Notes under the pieces: generated by a model
What the model was told of the DNA's origin: nothing
What the model saw: the letters and a program-made list of their open reading frames with translations, nothing else
Database searches by the model: none
Translations under genes and position numbers: made by a program
Shown: one piece after another, positions 4,272-18,054 of the stretch
Numbering within the stretch: the stretch's first letter is position 1
Layout of the letters: every line of letters starts with the position of its first letter
IMG/VR virus record: IMGVR_UViG_3300029787_000359
Coordinates: 2,339 to 22,782 of that record
DNA length: 20,444 nucleotides
Reading direction: 5' to 3' (one strand)
From: a virus

Positions 4272-5296
4272 AATCACCAGAAATGGGTGTAAGAACACGG
4301 TACTACTACACTGTGTCTGCAGGTGCGACTTCCGTTAGTGGCTCAGATGACAATAGTAAATCGTTAACATTTTCAGATGGAGAGTTTGTAGATGTATCAC
4401 TCAACGGTGTAGCTCTTGTTGCAGGAACAGACTACAACACAACAACTGCCAATACAATCGCAGGACTGTCTGCTATGTCTGCAAATGACGTAGTTGAGGT
4501 AATAGTGTATGATGTGTTTTCTGTGTTTAGTGGCGATATATCAGGTGACTTGGCAGTAGGTGGTAATTTAACAGGAGCAGATGGTGGAGCATTATCGGTT
4601 GGTGTTGATTTAACAACAACAGGAAAAATTGGTGCAGGGGGTGCAGTCGATGGTTCTTCATTAATTGCAGTGCATGGTAATGATGGAATAATTCTTAAAC
4701 GCTCTGGTCAAACTAATGGTTTTTTAGTTCGTCCTAATGGTGCAACAGATGGTTTACGATTTTCGCAAGGTGGTACTGGAGATAGATTATCCATTAATGC
4801 CGATGGCGATATTGATGTTGAAACAGGTGACATATTTTTTTCTACAGCAGGAAAAGGTATTGTGCTTGGAGCTACAAGTAACACAGATGCGAACACATTA
4901 GACGATTACGAAGAAGGTGAATTTGTTGTTAGCTGTAACAACAGTGTTACTTTAAAAAGTGCATTGGATACAATGGCGTACATTAAGATTGGACGACTTG
5001 TTGTAATTAGTGGTCAAATTCAAGTGGACAGTGATAACTCTAACGCAGATTTTGCTATTAACAATTTACCATTTACGACTGTGAATGGAACGGAGTCGGC
5101 AGGAGAGTCTGTGTCAGGTAGTATTCGATTATATAACTGGAATGTTGATAGTGATATAATTAACCCTGTGTGTTGGGATGCAGCAGGAACAACCACACTT
5201 TATTTTACGCAAAATAAAGACAATGCAGCTGAAAATGCACTTGATGCTGATGCAGATGCTTACATAAAATTTACATTTACTTACATGTCAAGTTAA
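4256..5296 (+). CDS. Tail fibre protein, MPYIG head and DDYEEG motif (346 aa)
   Basis: The ATG has an AAGGAGA site upstream. Residues 1-88 form a head domain recognisable in many marine phage fibres: MPYIGKSPEMGVRTRYYYT, then DDNSKSLTFSDGEFVDVSLN, GVALVAGTDYNTTTANTI and VVEVIVYDVF. Residues 95-190 are beta-repeat shaft (GDLAVGGNLTG; NADGDIDVETGDI). Residues 200-222 hold GKGIVLGATSNT and the widespread fibre motif LDDYEEGEF, which normally introduces a C-terminal globular domain; here that is the last ~125 residues. It is probably a virion fibre or host-recognition protein. It shares its first residues and RBS leader with the gene at 3208, but the rest is unrelated, as expected of modular fibre genes. 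Confidence 0.85.
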   Translation: MPYIGKSPEMGVRTRYYYTVSAGATSVSGSDDNSKSLTFSDGEFVDVSLNGVALVAGTDYNTTTANTIAGLSAMSANDVVEVIVYDVFSVFSGDISGDLAVGGNLTGADGGALSVGVDLTTTGKIGAGGAVDGSSLIAVHGNDGIILKRSGQTNGFLVRPNGATDGLRFSQGGTGDRLSINADGDIDVETGDIFFSTAGKGIVLGATSNTDANTLDDYEEGEFVVSCNNSVTLKSALDTMAYIKIGRLVVISGQIQVDSDNSNADFAINNLPFTTVNGTESAGESVSGSIRLYNWNVDSDIINPVCWDAAGTTTLYFTQNKDNAAENALDADADAYIKFTFTYMSS

Positions 5297-6902: not shown

Positions 6903-7130
6903 ATGACACAAGAATCAAAAGTAATAAACATAGACGGTAAAGAGTACAAAGAGTCTGACCTCAATCAAGAGCAGACATACTGCATACGTCAGATACGTAG
7001 CTTACAGAATAAGTGTGAGTCATTAAGATTTGAGCTAGACTCATCACAGATGGCACTGCAGTTTGCTACAAGTAAACTCATATCGTCTTTGACTACATCT
7101 GAAGATGATGATGTTAAAATAGCTAACTAA
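6903..7130 (+). CDS. Small coiled-coil phage protein, DUF6447-like (75 aa)
   Basis: The frame extends back to an ATG at 6879, but AAGGAGC at 6892-6898 lies just before the ATG at 6903, and starting there avoids an 11-base overlap with the previous gene, so 6903 is chosen. The sequence opens MTQESKVINIDGKEYKESDL, then NQEQTYCIRQIRSLQNKCES and a long amphipathic helix. 'INIDGKEY...DL' followed by a helical heptad pattern resembles the small DUF6447-type phage proteins; this is a recalled likeness and not certain. Function is unknown; it may be a small oligomer-forming protein. The C-terminus is acidic (TTSEDDDVK). Confidence 0.72.
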   Translation: MTQESKVINIDGKEYKESDLNQEQTYCIRQIRSLQNKCESLRFELDSSQMALQFATSKLISSLTTSEDDDVKIAN

Positions 7131-7135
7131 GGGAG
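7131..7135 (+). promoter_or_regulatory. Shine-Dalgarno site that supports an ATA start at 7143
   Basis: GGGAG lies directly after the previous stop and seven bases before ATA at 7143. No ATG, GTG or TTG in this frame occurs until 7221, which has no comparable site in front of it. Confidence 0.6.
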
Positions 7136-7142
7136 CAAGACC

Positions 7143-7571
7143 ATAGACCCTATTAGTATTGCCTTAGTATCATTTACCGCCCTCAAAAAAGGTATAGCGT
7201 TAGGTAAAGACCTTTCAGCTATGGGCAAAGACCTCAACAAAGTTTTTGATTTCATAGATGGAACGAAAGCTGCACAGAAGTCTGGTAACAAAAATGACCC
7301 ACTCTCTGATTACATTGCCTATGAAAAGGCACTGGATATGGAGAAGCAACTAGAGCAAGTTATATGGGAAACCAGAGGGTCAAAGGGCGTAGCTACATTT
7401 AAACGTATGAGAGCACAAGCTACAGAGCGAGATAGACAGTCTAAGTATGCATCAATTAAAAGACGTAATCAGATAGTTAATATACTCTCTATTATATTTG
7501 GTATAGTTGTATTTGCAGGTGGTTTAGTGGGCATGATATTCTTAGCTAAGTATTTACAGGAGTTACAGTAA
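7143..7571 (+). CDS. Small membrane-anchored phage protein, apparent ATA start (142 aa; holin-like role possible)
   Basis: The first ATG in frame is at 7221, but the frame stays open back to the preceding stop and the added 26 residues (DPISIALVSFTALKKGIALG, then KDLSA) look protein-like. Similar marine phage proteins, as I recall them, begin MDP-, matching an ATA codon at 7143 placed seven bases after GGGAG. Residues ~27-108 are charged and helical. Residues ~110-135 form one hydrophobic membrane span (IVNILSIIFGIVVFAGGLVG), followed by a short KYLQELQ tail. The basic stretch RRNQ just before the span suggests the N-terminal part stays in the cytoplasm. It is next to a second small membrane protein, as in a lysis cassette, but no endolysin is seen, so holin or spanin-like function is only a possibility. 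Confidence 0.72.
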   Translation: MDPISIALVSFTALKKGIALGKDLSAMGKDLNKVFDFIDGTKAAQKSGNKNDPLSDYIAYEKALDMEKQLEQVIWETRGSKGVATFKRMRAQATERDRQSKYASIKRRNQIVNILSIIFGIVVFAGGLVGMIFLAKYLQELQ

Positions 7572-7806: not shown

Positions 7807-9972
7807 ATGGCAGTACAAGTAGATTTTAAACCAGAGGCAAAAGAACGAATAGCACGGTCTATGGGATATAATGGAGACATGTCTAAGTTTCCTGCTTTCC
7901 TTGCAAGTGACCCATCTAAACAACACCTCATGGAACGATACAAAAAATATGCAGGTGGTATGGTATTAAAAGCTGCCCAAGGTGATTTAGTAAAAGTTGG
8001 TAAGCATTGGGCTGTAGAACAAGCAGATGGTTCAATGCTTGATACAGGCACTCGTAGTAAAAGTAATGCATCTAATATAGCAAGTAATGTTGCAAAAATA
8101 CAATCATCAGGAGCACAACCAACAGGTGAAATGGTAGACACAGGTAAAACTTGGTCTGTCCGTATGTCTGATGGTACACTACAAGATACAGGTAAAACTA
8201 AACTTGCTTTAGCTAAAAATATGGTTAGTAATATACCTATAGGTACATCTACACCACCACCACCACCTGCTCCACCTGCAGACCCTGCACCACCTGCAGA
8301 CCCTGTTACACCACCACCGCCACCGCCACCTGCTTCTAATTTAGGCAGTGACTTAGGTAGCGATATGGCAAACATGGCTCAGTTTGGAACAGTGCCAGAT
8401 GCAGCAGTTGTAAATACTACAAGTTTAGCGGATGCAGCAGCAGCAGACCCTACTACTACTATTACAGCAGGTACAGGTGAAGTCGGTGCATCTCCCACAG
8501 CAACTGCAACAACTGCAACACAAGCAGCACCAGTAACAGCACCTACACAAACAGACGCAGCTACTATAGAGGCAGAACGTGTCAAGGAAGGTACAGATGC
8601 TGCATTGGGTCAACTTACAACGGAACAACTTGATCCTGACGATCCACGTTTACAGGTAGAGGCACAACAGCAAACAGAGTCAAGTGTGTCAGGTTTGGAT
8701 GCAGCACAAGGTGAAGCTACTACTATTGACCCTGACACTGCACCTAAACGTGTTGTGGGTGACGATGAGCTTGTGGGGGGTAAAGACTTCTCAGGTTCTA
8801 CTGTTGACATGGACAGAGTAGGTGAGACTTTTGGTACAGGAGAAGTAAAGGCAGCATCTGTAGTGGACGAATTAGGTTCTCTTATGGCTGACTTTGAGGG
8901 TGGTAATGTACCTGTTTGGGCTAAAGGTGCAATGCGAGTAGCAAGAGAGAACATGGCAGCAAGAGGTTTAGGTGGTTCATCTATTGCTTCACAGGCTATC
9001 ATACAGGCAGCAATGGCATCTGCTCTACCTATAGCACAAATAGAGGCAGGTAATAAACAGCAGATGGCTTTAGAAAAAGCTAAATATCGTGCAGAGTTTA
9101 TGAAGATTGACTTTGACCAAAAATTTCAAACTAAAGTTATTAATGCAGCTAAAGTTGAAAATGCAGCAAACATGCAGTTTAGTGCAGACCAACAGATTAC
9201 ATTAGAAAATAGTCGTACTGTAAATACAATGAATTTACAAAACTTGTCTAACAGACAAAGCCTTGTATTGGCAGAAGCTAGTGCTTTAGCTAACCTAGAC
9301 ATGGCTAACCTCAACAACAGACAACAAGCAGAGGTAATGAACGCACAAAACTTCTTGCAGGTTGATATGGCTAACATGAGCAATAGACAACAGGTTGAGA
9401 TGTTTAAGGCACAGCAACGTATAGGTGCATTGTTTTCTGACCAAGCAGCAGGTAATGCAGCAAAACAGTTTAATGCTTCCAGTGAAAATCAAATGGAACA
9501 GTTTTTTAAAAACTTACAAACGCAAGTGCAACAGTTCAATACATCACAAACAAATGCTATGGAACAATTTAATGCAGGACAGGCAACCTCTATATCACAG
9601 TTTAATACACAGATACAGAATCAACGTGACCAATTTAATGCACAGAATCAACTTGTAATAGCACAGTCTAATGCACAGTGGCGTAGACAGATTGCTACGG
9701 CTGACACCGCAGCTACCAACAGGGCAAATGAAATAAATGCACAAAATGCATTAAATGTATCTCAACAGGCTTATGCTAATATGTGGCAAGAACGAGCAGA
9801 CAATATGAAAAGAGCTTGGGAATCTGGAGAAAACTCACAAAATAGATTAATGCAAATAGCGTTGCAAGAACTAGAAAACGAAGGTGCGTTAGATGAAGCA
9901 GCTATGGCAGCTAGAACAGAAAGACGAAAAGGAATAGGTGCATGGTTAAGACACATATTCCCATTTACATAA
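7807..9972 (+). CDS. Large virion-associated protein with Pro-rich linker and Asn/Gln-rich helical repeats (721 aa)
   Basis: ATG after AAGGAATAA. Residues 1-60 are helical and basic. Residues ~62-140 hold two related segments (KVGKHWAVEQADGSMLDTG and DTGKTWSVRMSDGTLQDTG). Residues 150-176 are a Pro-rich linker, 180-300 are acidic, Ala/Thr-rich and probably disordered, and 368-410 hold PVWAKGAMRVARENMAARGL followed by GGSS. From ~420 to ~690 the protein is a long helical region rich in Asn and Gln, with LSNRQ, LNNRQ and MSNRQ spaced about 22-24 residues and several QFN repeats. The end (KGIGAWLRHIFPF) is basic and aromatic. There is no catalytic motif. Size and position before other presumed ejection proteins suggest a structural or internal virion protein; I cannot name the family. 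Confidence 0.75.
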   Translation: MAVQVDFKPEAKERIARSMGYNGDMSKFPAFLASDPSKQHLMERYKKYAGGMVLKAAQGDLVKVGKHWAVEQADGSMLDTGTRSKSNASNIASNVAKIQSSGAQPTGEMVDTGKTWSVRMSDGTLQDTGKTKLALAKNMVSNIPIGTSTPPPPPAPPADPAPPADPVTPPPPPPPASNLGSDLGSDMANMAQFGTVPDAAVVNTTSLADAAAADPTTTITAGTGEVGASPTATATTATQAAPVTAPTQTDAATIEAERVKEGTDAALGQLTTEQLDPDDPRLQVEAQQQTESSVSGLDAAQGEATTIDPDTAPKRVVGDDELVGGKDFSGSTVDMDRVGETFGTGEVKAASVVDELGSLMADFEGGNVPVWAKGAMRVARENMAARGLGGSSIASQAIIQAAMASALPIAQIEAGNKQQMALEKAKYRAEFMKIDFDQKFQTKVINAAKVENAANMQFSADQQITLENSRTVNTMNLQNLSNRQSLVLAEASALANLDMANLNNRQQAEVMNAQNFLQVDMANMSNRQQVEMFKAQQRIGALFSDQAAGNAAKQFNASSENQMEQFFKNLQTQVQQFNTSQTNAMEQFNAGQATSISQFNTQIQNQRDQFNAQNQLVIAQSNAQWRRQIATADTAATNRANEINAQNALNVSQQAYANMWQERADNMKRAWESGENSQNRLMQIALQELENEGALDEAAMAARTERRKGIGAWLRHIFPFT
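8251..8335 (+). repeat. CCA/CCN low-complexity tract coding the proline-rich linker
   Basis: Runs of CCA, CCG and CCT with two near-identical copies of GCACCACCTGCAGACCCTG-type sequence encode PPPPPAPPADPAPPADP and PPPPPPPA. The tract could change length by slippage. It also produces long antisense Gly-coding frames that are not genes. Confidence 0.8.
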
Positions 9973-15547: not shown

Positions 15548-15952
15548 TCTACTATCGCCACTACCACTTATCATACCTCGTTTTTTTCTACCTTGCAACT
15601 TTGTCTCGTTCTCTGATGCAATCTTACCAAGAGATATGCCCAAGTCATCTGCTAGTACGGCACAGTACCATAGCACATCGCCTATCTCGCTACCTATCTG
15701 TTCCTTCCATTCCTTTGGTAAGGAACTTGTGCCATCTCTCACCAACTTTTTAACCTTATTAGCTACCTCACCTGCTTCCCCTGCAAGTCCTAGTGCAGGG
15801 TAAAGTATCTTATGTGTTGCAGGATAGATTGCTGTTGTCTTTGCTATCCTTTGATACGAATTAAAATCCATTGAATATTTCCTTTCTAACCAACCGTTAA
15901 CTTCATCTTGTAGTGCTTTCTCATGCTCTGGCAATAGACCTGTTCTGCTCAT
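15545..15952 (-). CDS. mazG: MazG-type nucleoside triphosphate pyrophosphohydrolase
   Basis: The MazG fold signature is present: E59 and E62 in GLAGEAGEVANKVKK, and E89 and D92 in SEIGDVLWY, the ExxE...ExxD set that binds Mg and substrate, followed by the usual N-x-x-KL-x-x-RK end (residues 115-124). Such enzymes cleave NTPs or dNTPs to NMP and pyrophosphate in the cytoplasm; phage copies are thought to adjust nucleotide pools or alarmones. The ATG at 15952 (AAAGG upstream) overlaps the previous gene by 32 bases. An internal ATG at 15871 (residue 28) has a better AGAAAGGA site and begins MDFNSYQ as many MazG proteins do, so a 108-aa form is a real alternative. It is the last gene of the - strand operon. 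Confidence 0.92.
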   Translation of the reverse strand: MSRTGLLPEHEKALQDEVNGWLERKYSMDFNSYQRIAKTTAIYPATHKILYPALGLAGEAGEVANKVKKLVRDGTSSLPKEWKEQIGSEIGDVLWYCAVLADDLGISLGKIASENETKLQGRKKRGMISGSGDSR

Positions 15953-16145
15953 ACTTCATTACCTTTCTCATCTTCTCAAAATAGGCTTTGTTAAAACCTC
16001 TCTCCCATTCACGATATTGCATCGTGTCCTTGTGAAAGGGATTGGCTACCCTACCACGATGAAAGTCATCTACACCTCTTTTGTACTGTATAATTAAAGG
16101 TGCATCATACTTACCTAAGTTATGTCTAGCTCTATTGTTTTTCAT
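15921..16145 (-). CDS. Ribosome modulation factor (RMF)-like protein (74 aa)
   Basis: Residues 19-58 read IIQYKRGVDDFHRGRVANPF followed by HKDTMQYREWERGFNKAYFE. The pattern RG-x6-GR-x2-NP[YF]-x-x-x-T-x-x-Y-x-x-W-x-x-GF matches the core of ribosome modulation factor, the small basic protein that drives dimerisation of host 70S ribosomes; E. coli RMF has RGYQAGIAGR, CPY and QWLGGW at equivalent positions. RMF-like proteins do occur in phages. The protein is strongly basic, without membrane segments. Its ATG is one base after the stop of the reductase gene (TGACATG), so it is probably co-translated. The family call rests on this pattern only; it might be any small zinc-free, RNA-binding phage protein. 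Confidence 0.62.
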   Translation of the reverse strand: MKNNRARHNLGKYDAPLIIQYKRGVDDFHRGRVANPFHKDTMQYREWERGFNKAYFEKMRKVMKYEQNRSIARA

Positions 16146-16146
16146 G

Positions 16147-18054
16147 TCACGCTCCTATATCTACAATTTCACACACATCACCGCTACAAGCAAAGGTTTG
16201 ACTACCTGCTGTGGTGTCTTCTTTTTCGTAGTCCATTAACCTATTCCAATCTATATTCTCAGGACTACTTTTTAACATAGCATTGTATTCTTCCTTTGTA
16301 CAGTCTTGATAGGGTGCTTGTTGATAGACATGATCTGAGTGTGGTAAAAATGACACACCTGACATTTCATTAAAATATCTGTAGACAAATGCACCTACGT
16401 CCATCCATTCATGGTCACGTACTGTAACGGTACAGCTAGGTTTATGCTCACACCATTCCTGTTGATACATAAGCCACATAGTTAATTGATCTACTGCTGA
16501 CATGTCGTTACGTGTAGTAGAGTTGTCAGGTGACTTCATAGGAAAACTAAATACCGTAGTGGCATCAGGCTTCATAACGTCAGGTTCATTTGGTACACCC
16601 ATATCAATCATAAAGTTAGTGAGTGGGTCTTTGTTATCCCCACGTACAGTTCTAATGTAATAGTTACTATGCCTAGCATGTATGCCACTTGCACTGTCAC
16701 ATAATTGTGACACTGTGCCACTAGGTTTAACGCAGGTAATAGCTGTTGACTGTGGTATGTTCCACTTCTTAGCGTACTCTTTGTTTGTGTCCACGGCTAC
16801 CTGTCTTAACATTCGTAATCTATCGCAAAGATATTCGTCTTTGCCATTGGTTAAAACATTATCCATGATACCTGTAAGAGATACACCCAAGAGTCTTTCT
16901 TCTTCTGTGTTATCTGTCCACACTTTTCTAAGGTAAGGAAATTTAGTAAGTGTAGCTTGTGCTGTACCTAAGATAGTGGCTAATCTAATCTTACGAGACA
17001 GTTCTTTGTTAGTATCTGTAGCACGTATAACTACCTCAGTAAGATTACAAAATTGGTATGGTCGTAATATTATTTCCGAACAGGGGTTACAGCCAAACTC
17101 ATAGTTAGAGTCTCTTCTACCATTCTTCTCTGCTTGCTTCTTAGCAGCTACCCTATTAAAGATACCACGCTCACCAGACTTAGATTCAATCAGTGAAGTC
17201 CACTCACGCATAAATGTTTCAGCATTTGGCTTGTCTGTATAACTAACAGAGTTGTTAGACAGTGCCATGTGTGGTGCAGTATCCCACCATTGTCCTGACT
17301 TAGCCTGTCTCATACGTATGTCAGATAAATTAGACAGTGAAATCATAGCTGATCTACGTACACCACCAACCACTACTACCTCACCTATCTTACACATAAG
17401 AGAGTGACAGTCATAACTTGTTAGCTTCTTACCTGCATTGTTAGTAAACAGATTAATTGTAAAGTTAAACAGGTCAACAAGAGGTGCAGGTCCACTTGCT
17501 CTACCACCAAAGGTTTTAAGCCTAGCTCCTGCAGGTCTAACTTTACTGACATTGTACGTGGGTATCTCTCCTGCGTACAGTAAGGCAATCAGTTGACGTA
17601 ATCCTTTAGCCCACCCTTCTTTACTGTCTTTAATAACTATTGTAGTGTCGCTTTTAAACAACTTTTCTGGTATCTCTGGTAGTTTGTTTATGTATTCTCG
17701 TTCTACAGAGAATCCTACCCCTGTACCACACAGCAAGATGTACATAGCTTCATCAAAAGATTTAGGATCATCAACAGGTAGATAGCTACAGTTGTATCCT
17801 GCTGTGTTGTCTCTTGTTAGTGCCTCTCCTGCAGTCATTAGTGCTCTCATAGATGGCATAACTTCTAACCCTAGTATAGCCTGTTCTATATCTGTTTTGT
17901 CCTGTTTAGAAAACTTAACCTTGTCATGCATGTAGTCCACGTAGCGTGATACAGTCTCACCCCATGTTTCTCTACGTCCTTCATCGTCTAGCCATCGTGC
18001 GTAACGTGACGTAGCTATAAAGTTTTGATAGTCTGTTGGTAGCATATTGTTCAT
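16147..18054 (-). CDS. Class II (adenosylcobalamin-dependent) ribonucleoside-triphosphate reductase, monomeric type (635 aa)
   Basis: It reduces ribonucleotides to deoxyribonucleotides using B12, supplying phage DNA synthesis. The key residues align with the Lactobacillus leichmannii enzyme: C89 in GYNCSY (first redox Cys), N323, C325 and E327 in NPCSE (radical Cys and partners), C336 in QFCNL (second redox Cys, +11 from C325 as in the reference), and C-terminal C623 and C628 in FACSGDVCEI for re-reduction. The length is a little below the ~740 aa reference, so it lacks some N-terminal or insert sequence but no catalytic residue. ATG at 18054 follows ACGGAG eight bases upstream. It is in the operon with DUF3310 and MazG genes. 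Triphosphate specificity is inferred from family likeness; the host or community must supply B12. Confidence 0.95.
   Translation of the reverse strand: MNNMLPTDYQNFIATSRYARWLDDEGRRETWGETVSRYVDYMHDKVKFSKQDKTDIEQAILGLEVMPSMRALMTAGEALTRDNTAGYNCSYLPVDDPKSFDEAMYILLCGTGVGFSVEREYINKLPEIPEKLFKSDTTIVIKDSKEGWAKGLRQLIALLYAGEIPTYNVSKVRPAGARLKTFGGRASGPAPLVDLFNFTINLFTNNAGKKLTSYDCHSLMCKIGEVVVVGGVRRSAMISLSNLSDIRMRQAKSGQWWDTAPHMALSNNSVSYTDKPNAETFMREWTSLIESKSGERGIFNRVAAKKQAEKNGRRDSNYEFGCNPCSEIILRPYQFCNLTEVVIRATDTNKELSRKIRLATILGTAQATLTKFPYLRKVWTDNTEEERLLGVSLTGIMDNVLTNGKDEYLCDRLRMLRQVAVDTNKEYAKKWNIPQSTAITCVKPSGTVSQLCDSASGIHARHSNYYIRTVRGDNKDPLTNFMIDMGVPNEPDVMKPDATTVFSFPMKSPDNSTTRNDMSAVDQLTMWLMYQQEWCEHKPSCTVTVRDHEWMDVGAFVYRYFNEMSGVSFLPHSDHVYQQAPYQDCTKEEYNAMLKSSPENIDWNRLMDYEKEDTTAGSQTFACSGDVCEIVDIGA

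Follow-up and report, generated by a model that had tools for sequence, protein, structure and literature searches.

The window analyzed here, a 20,444-nucleotide stretch of viral DNA taken as a whole and drawn from a virus record of 22,782 bases, carries behind a tail fibre gene an open reading frame for a small protein that begins at an ATA codon and is preceded by a Shine-Dalgarno sequence (Table 1); in some relatives the gene lies ahead of holin and endolysin genes. By hydropathy, a C-terminal span similar to that of the window's protein was found in 9 of the 10 family members checked (L103 had none above the threshold), and structure prediction for the product of the ATA gene gave a pLDDT of 68.2 and a pTM of 0.44. 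For clades AB and D (described below), six contigs were compared (G001, G002, G004, G005, G011, and G012), and in each the next gene downstream adjoins the family gene; it was not found in the two clade C contigs, G008 and G009.

Table 1. Features at the ATA-start locus, in window coordinates. Energies are for the duplex with the anti-Shine-Dalgarno sequence (kcal/mol).
Feature	Position	Strand	Remarks
Upstream gene, 75 aa	6903..7130	+	ATG at 6903 with AAGGAG ahead of it; start in the ORF list is 6879
TAA stop before the ATA gene	7128-7130	+	stop of the upstream gene
Shine-Dalgarno sequence GGGAG	7131..7135	+	-7.6
Spacer CAAGACC, 7 nt	7136-7142	+	between GGGAG and ATA
ATA start codon	7143..7145	+	presumably read as fMet
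Coding sequence from ATA, 142 aa	7143..7571	+	open to TAA at 7569-7571
Codons 2-26	7146..7220	+	lost if the start is only at ATG 7221; purifying selection between ATA-start relatives
Internal ATG, codon 27 (ATA = codon 1)	7221..7223	+	Shine-Dalgarno energy only -2.9
C-terminal hydrophobic segment, residues 109-139	7467..7559	+	one membrane span by hydropathy
Next gene, 76 aa	7573..7803	+	N-terminal hydrophobic span by hydropathy

A GTA_holin_3TM gene is present in 10 of 18 contigs. In seven of them the distance to the family gene is 0.1-0.7 kb (G006, G007, G008, and G015, which are near-copies; G009; and two members with ATG, G016 and G017); in G004, G012, and G013 it is about 21-30 kb. The order in G008 (clade C) is the family gene, an 84-aa ORF, the GTA_holin_3TM holin, and the endolysin. 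The product of the ATA gene itself had no holin match in PHROGs or Pfam and was not classed as a holin, and several phages that carry the family have another holin; a fair guess at its identity would be a membrane protein of the late or lysis module. The window's phage is a candidate HMO-2011-type podovirus. The gene at 7807 matched HMO-2011 (56.6% over 57% of the query) and CRP-345 (50.4% over 70% of the query) among 27 marine-phage records in all, and CRP-345 carries its homologue of the ATA gene immediately ahead of that of gene 7807. Gene 12098 gave weak matches to CRP-2 and CRP-13. A MazG-like gene and a ribonucleotide reductase occupy positions 15548-18054 on the minus strand of the window, and ribonucleotide reductase was present in all eight other contigs compared.

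An earlier note, made from the letters of the DNA alone, proposed that a phage membrane protein starts at the ATA. It pointed out that the frame holds no ATG, GTG, or TTG from the preceding stop to position 7221 and that GGGAG stands seven bases ahead of the ATA; both readings proved correct, and homologues aligned with their residue 1 at this ATA codon, which supports the proposed start. Relatives were collected by a protein search of viral contigs (36 sequences), a profile built from 12 sequences (74 sequences), and a further search that added the truncated contig L157. The residue-1 alignment comprised 76 sequences, namely the window, 74 contigs, and L157, with L036 excluded because it does not reach the start. 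The codon at residue 1 was ATG in 43 sequences, ATA in 12, ATC in 4, TTG in 8, GTG in 4, GTC in 3, and GTA in 2. Thus, AUA or AUC occupies the aligned first codon in 16 of the 76, a canonical ATG, GTG, or TTG in 55, and GTC or GTA following an ATG in the remaining 5. An ATG was found 1-2 codons earlier in every GTC and GTA row and in 3 of the 4 GTG rows; the contigs with an ATG 1-2 codons ahead of the aligned residue, which is then valine, are L090, L092, L093, L096, L097, and L116-L118. The homologue alignment that the note had called for therefore places starts at the codon aligned with 7143 or 1-2 codons before it, with ATG the commonest codon there. No ATA or ATC occurred among the 59 sequences outside three clades, where either the aligned codon or the ATG 1-2 codons before it ends in G. 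The opening MDPISIAL, which the note had matched to related phage proteins, agrees with that of the nearest ATG-start relative, L050, which begins MDPISIALL.

Deposited annotations of cultured roseophages place the start at the same position. The query's residue 1 corresponds to the first codon of CRP-9 gp60, CRP-4 gp32, CRP-2 gp64, CRP-1 gp58, and CRP-603 gp68, whose products are 24-33% identical, and to the second codon, after an ATG, of CRP-345 gp45 (27.7% identity with a clade C protein as the query); the opening of the latter is Met-Ile-Asp-Pro. These six genes are homologous to the ATA gene and start at the same residue or, for CRP-345, one codon earlier, but they do so with ATG or GTG, unlike the window. 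The window's protein also matched PHROG 32327 with an E value of 4.5e-6, its residues 1-140 aligning with profile positions 2-148 of 152, and 26 of the 36 members of alignment A2 matched this profile at an E value of 0.01 or better. A search of bacterial and archaeal genomes gave 96 pattern matches, of which none was a relative.

A single base change would turn the ATA into ATG, and the earlier note had offered a sequencing error as one alternative. Such an error, whether of sequencing or of assembly, is effectively ruled out by the occurrence of ATA or ATC at this codon in 15 other contigs from 15 IMG datasets, with diverged surroundings. The same ATA is present in L046 (99% protein identity) and in L048/L049 (94%), and ATA or ATC recurs in two further, diverged clades.

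The other alternative in that note was initiation at 7221. Translation from this ATG only, with the preceding 26 codons untranslated, would use the earliest in-frame ATG, GTG, or TTG of the gene. Codons 2-26, however, evolve as protein between ATA-start members, which counts against initiation at 7221 alone. The window and L048, both with ATA, differ by 12 synonymous and 0 nonsynonymous changes in these codons, and the window and L047 by 12 and 1, respectively. The clade C pair L056 and L081 showed 6 synonymous and 2 nonsynonymous changes, whereas the clade D pairs gave 6 and 4 (L082 and L083), 4 and 3 (L083 and L107), and 3 and 3 (L082 and L107). By these comparisons, translation of codons 2-26 is well supported in clades AB and C; it is less clear in clade D, where purifying selection is weaker. 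Where homologues have canonical starts, these lie at codon 1 or 1-2 codons ahead of it, the Shine-Dalgarno site at 7221 is weak (Table 1), and Met27 is replaced by valine in L103/L105 and by leucine in L116/L117. We therefore regard a start at 7221 alone as very unlikely. Met27 is mostly conserved among the relatives, and the Shine-Dalgarno site ahead of it is weak in the contigs examined. Residue conservation and site strength in those contigs gave no sign of a second start at codon 27.

The window's upstream gene shares its reading frame with the ATA gene, and its TAA ends 12 nt before the ATA, so that ribosomes arriving by readthrough of this stop, or elsewhere by frameshifting, were a real rival to initiation at the ATA; only the TAA and four codons stand between the two genes. 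We compared the upstream genes of 15 ATA/ATC members, leaving out L157. In 6 members (the window, L046, L048, L049, L083, and L115) the gene nearest upstream shares the frame of the start (frame 0); it occupies frame 1 in 6 others and frame 2 in 3, and the 9 of 15 in another frame count against readthrough as a general route. The upstream stop may be TAA, TGA, or TAG and lies 4 to 21 nt ahead of the start (48 nt in L115), and the upstream genes are 73, 75-83, 87, 164, 276, or 467 aa long. Relatives of the window's own upstream gene are present in G001 and G004, whereas G002, G005, G008, G009, G011, and G012 gave none at an E value of 1e-5. Outside the Shine-Dalgarno stretch, the linkers are dissimilar. 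Within clade D, AGGAGATAGAACA-ATA is conserved in L082, L083, L084, and L107 behind upstream genes of 276, 164, 467, and 276 aa, respectively; the exception in this clade, L157, carries a different Shine-Dalgarno unit. Delivery of ribosomes from the upstream gene is thus highly improbable.

A maximum-likelihood tree was computed for 55 distinct proteins with residue 1 omitted. The ATA/ATC starts fall into three separate clades, and the well-supported branches require at least four changes. In clade AB, the window, L046, and L048/L049 have ATA, L047 and L115 have ATC, and L050 has ATG; clade C comprises L056-L058 and L114 with ATA and L081 with ATC; and clade D comprises L082-L084 and L107 with ATA. 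L157, which has ATC, was too short to be placed in the tree, but it matches clade D over its 18 residues. Counting L157 in D, both ATA and ATC are present in every one of the three clades. Recent exchange of the 5' end was considered as the source of the separate clades and rejected, as codons 2-26 show 64-75% DNA identity versus 62-65% for codons 27-130 in the AB and D pairs listed; an older exchange of the 5' end between clades may have occurred. Changes between A and C at the third start-codon base occurred in each clade, and a change between A and G at most once (L050). Since A/C changes are about as frequent as A/G changes at fourfold sites within the clades, these base changes do not support active avoidance of ATG, and that argument was dropped.

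Several contigs are near-copies, and the number of distinct ATA/ATC initiation regions is 11. All 11 have Shine-Dalgarno energies of -7.3 kcal/mol or better at proper spacing (median -8.7 kcal/mol, range -11.0 to -7.3), compared with a median of -4.0 kcal/mol (-10.3 to 0.3) for 31 distinct ATG regions and -7.3 kcal/mol for 5 distinct GTG/TTG regions. The difference between ATA/ATC and ATG regions gave a Mann-Whitney p of 2e-6 with kinship ignored. A kinship-aware test found about 3.6 of 4 independent pairs in agreement and 0 against (p 0.125); with only four such pairs on the tree, 0.05 is unreachable. AUA/AUC starts are therefore associated with strong Shine-Dalgarno sites, but not significantly once kinship is corrected for. 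Over the 12 nt to each side of the start, and with all frames considered, the 11 regions contain no ATG, GTG, or TTG except for a GTG at -8 in L056 and L081 that is part of the Shine-Dalgarno sequence itself. No usable canonical start lies near the ATA/ATC codon where the homologues start, with the exception of L084, which has an in-frame ATG 11 codons upstream. Folding of 12 start regions gave z-scores of -0.91 to 1.27, with no indication of RNA structure at the start. Genetic recoding and a phage-borne initiator tRNA were rejected; AUC is used besides AUA, and no tRNA gene was found in the window and eight other contigs, several of which are fragments.

The bases around the ATA might instead belong to a promoter for a phage RNA polymerase. 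Compared with the SP6 promoter consensus, the clade C stretch (in L123, which is G008, around position 5002) has 4 mismatches in 21 positions, where shuffled sequences averaged 6.3, and a gene for a T7-type RNA polymerase is present in G008. The SP6-like stretch is nevertheless unrepeated in G008, where the next best has 7 mismatches (shuffles 6.0); the sister sequence L081 has TATCG where L056 has TATAG; only 1 of 9 records yielded the polymerase; and in the six further contigs tested, the best SP6-like stretches had 5 or 6 mismatches. We consider a promoter at this site to have very little probability. Initiation at AUA 7143 is predicted with high confidence for this small membrane protein gene. 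The comparative evidence for it consists of the position of the start, its recurrence in three clades, the apparent translation of codons 2-26, and the strong Shine-Dalgarno sites.

Other non-canonical starts were sought among 338 greedily called ORFs of nine phage contigs by screening for ATA, ATC, ATT, or CTG before the first canonical start, with a Shine-Dalgarno energy of -6.5 or better and an extension of at least 2 codons. The screen flagged the ATA gene in seven contigs (the window, G004, G008, G002, G001, G011, and G009), with an additional ATT three codons on within the gene in G008 and G009. In G012 an in-frame ATG 11 codons upstream hid the gene from the screen, and the family member in G005 starts with ATG. 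Only two other matches had an extension of at least 2 codons: G011:20644, where the canonical ATG has the better site, and G009:193, a 50-aa ORF at the end of its contig. Ten more matches lie immediately before an ATG.

An exact scan for GGAG-N7-ATAGACCCTAT matched 22 contigs: 3 of the first family, 4 full-length and 1 broken (after 29 codons) member of a second family, and 14 others that look like chance matches. As the pattern was derived from the first family, the second family is a found example and provides no estimate of frequency. It is a phage protein of 121 aa, with members among L183, L185, L193, L199, and L204-L283. Two members had no Pfam or PHROG match, and comparison of the profiles of the two families gave no evidence of homology, aligning 13 residues at 2% probability. 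Among the best 80 of 348 relatives, the start codon is ATA in 36, ATG in 41, GTG in 2, and CTT in 1; the last is L208, whose unrelated 5' end is included in the tally but not in the tree. On the best DNA tree, built from 59 distinct sequences, 8 changes of the ATA label are needed; well-supported branches require at least 3. Of the 36 ATA members, 26 have their next canonical codon at position 42, 4 at position 15, and 6 at position 6; for these last six, conservation would also allow a start five codons on. Over codons 2-41, comparison of L229 with L239 and of L229 with L230, in which the next canonical codon is codon 42, gave 11 synonymous and 0 nonsynonymous changes, and the more distant ATA pairs L229/L204 and L229/L214 gave 14 and 11 and 21 and 8, respectively. 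With kinship ignored, the Shine-Dalgarno energies are -8.8 to -9.3 for 7 distinct ATA regions; for 17 distinct ATG regions the median is -5.2 (-11.2 to 1.8). By sequence comparison, AUA starts thus appear to recur in phage genes, in three clades of one family and in several places in the tree of the second.

In L239 the second-family gene is accompanied by a DUF5675 gene, small ORFs, and a SprT-like gene whose match falls below the Pfam cut-off, and a 27.7% identical Vibrio phage gene comes after a gene annotated as endolysin; a role in lysis is suggested. Screening of 778 ORFs in the second-family loci gave 52 matches in the second family itself (several codons per gene) and 14 elsewhere. Of the latter, 13 are an ATT before a 74-aa ORF downstream of the second-family gene (L229-L283), a third candidate for an AUH start that we rejected: read by eye, its Shine-Dalgarno sequence and extension seem to lie within the last part of an upstream gene read in a different frame, and the apparent start is probably an artefact of this overlap. 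The fourteenth match is an ATT five codons before the SprT-like gene in L205, with an energy of -8.5.

Third-base-mismatched start codons are read by the initiator tRNA at a reduced rate and are screened by IF3, and Escherichia coli infC and pcnB start at AUU. To our knowledge, AUA initiation is known from few bacterial genes. The ATA gene resembles Staphylococcus aureus infC, ccpN, and cvfC1 and E. coli infC and pcnB in that a start differing from AUG in its third base occupies a conserved position and is paired with a strong Shine-Dalgarno site. Discrimination by IF3 has been demonstrated for some genes of this class. It differs from the infC/ccpN class in that those are cellular genes for which reduced output has been measured, whereas the ATA gene encodes a phage membrane protein known from its sequence; furthermore, AUC is used and the codon varies among AUA, AUC, and AUG in related phages, unlike in that class. 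According to the S. aureus study (PMC13009471), infC and ccpN start at AUA and cvfC1 at AUU behind strong Shine-Dalgarno sites, reporters with AUA or AUU and an extended Shine-Dalgarno sequence yielded about 10% of AUG expression in poor medium, and ccpN reached up to 30% of AUG expression in rich medium. IF3 and pairing strength at starts are treated in PMC10158994. Streptomyces sigR (PMC5472188) likewise has a non-canonical start that keeps output low; its start is GTC, where the phage gene has AUA or AUC, and repression by IF3 was established for that gene. Among the matches listed in a literature search over titles and abstract openings of open-licence papers, none concerned AUA/AUC starts in phage genes.

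The arrangement at 7143 is that of the S. aureus AUA/AUU starts and points to a low, set output. The likely explanation is that AUA 7143 is a weak but real start which, together with its strong Shine-Dalgarno site, keeps the output of a late membrane protein low. GGGAG seven nucleotides upstream would position the 30S subunit at the AUA, and the initiator tRNA would decode the AUA (AUC in relatives) with a third-base mismatch, presumably yielding a product that begins fMet-Asp-Pro-Ile. Initiation would be several-fold weaker than at AUG, with the strong Shine-Dalgarno site compensating in part for the weak codon, and the single-span membrane protein would probably be made from the late gene cluster at a set, low level. 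We infer the low output, its being selected for, and any use in timing from this arrangement.

It is also possible, although less likely, that the AUA is a real start with a weak codon that has no selected role, the strong Shine-Dalgarno site leaving its third base of little consequence and free to drift. The changes seen at that base do resemble those at fourfold sites within the clades, and the ATG relative L050, which has a weaker site (-5.5), sits inside the window's clade. Free drift fits poorly with the absence of ATA and ATC from all 59 sequences outside the three clades, where the codon or a preceding ATG ends in G, and with the cost of such starts, since AUA gave only about 10-30% of AUG output in the system measured in PMC13009471. 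Two families with no detectable relation have, moreover, made the same switch.

Selected low output, our favored reading, has a more speculative extension that we think doubtful, namely that phages repeatedly place AUA/AUC starts on small late or lysis-module membrane proteins as an IF3-sensitive valve. Were this the case, output would be low under strict IF3 control and would rise as the host translation apparatus changes late in infection; the dose of the membrane protein, and possibly the time of lysis, would track the state of the ribosome, and the two families would represent separate cases.

With gene finders limited to ATG, GTG, and TTG, the window's protein would lose its first 26 codons, and in 26 of the 36 ATA members of the second family the next codon open to such a finder is 41 codons on. 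The N-termini of proteins with AUA/AUC starts may thus be wrong in virus records. Both families also provide natural sets of AUA, AUC, and AUG alleles that are useful for studying the trade-off between Shine-Dalgarno and start-codon strength.
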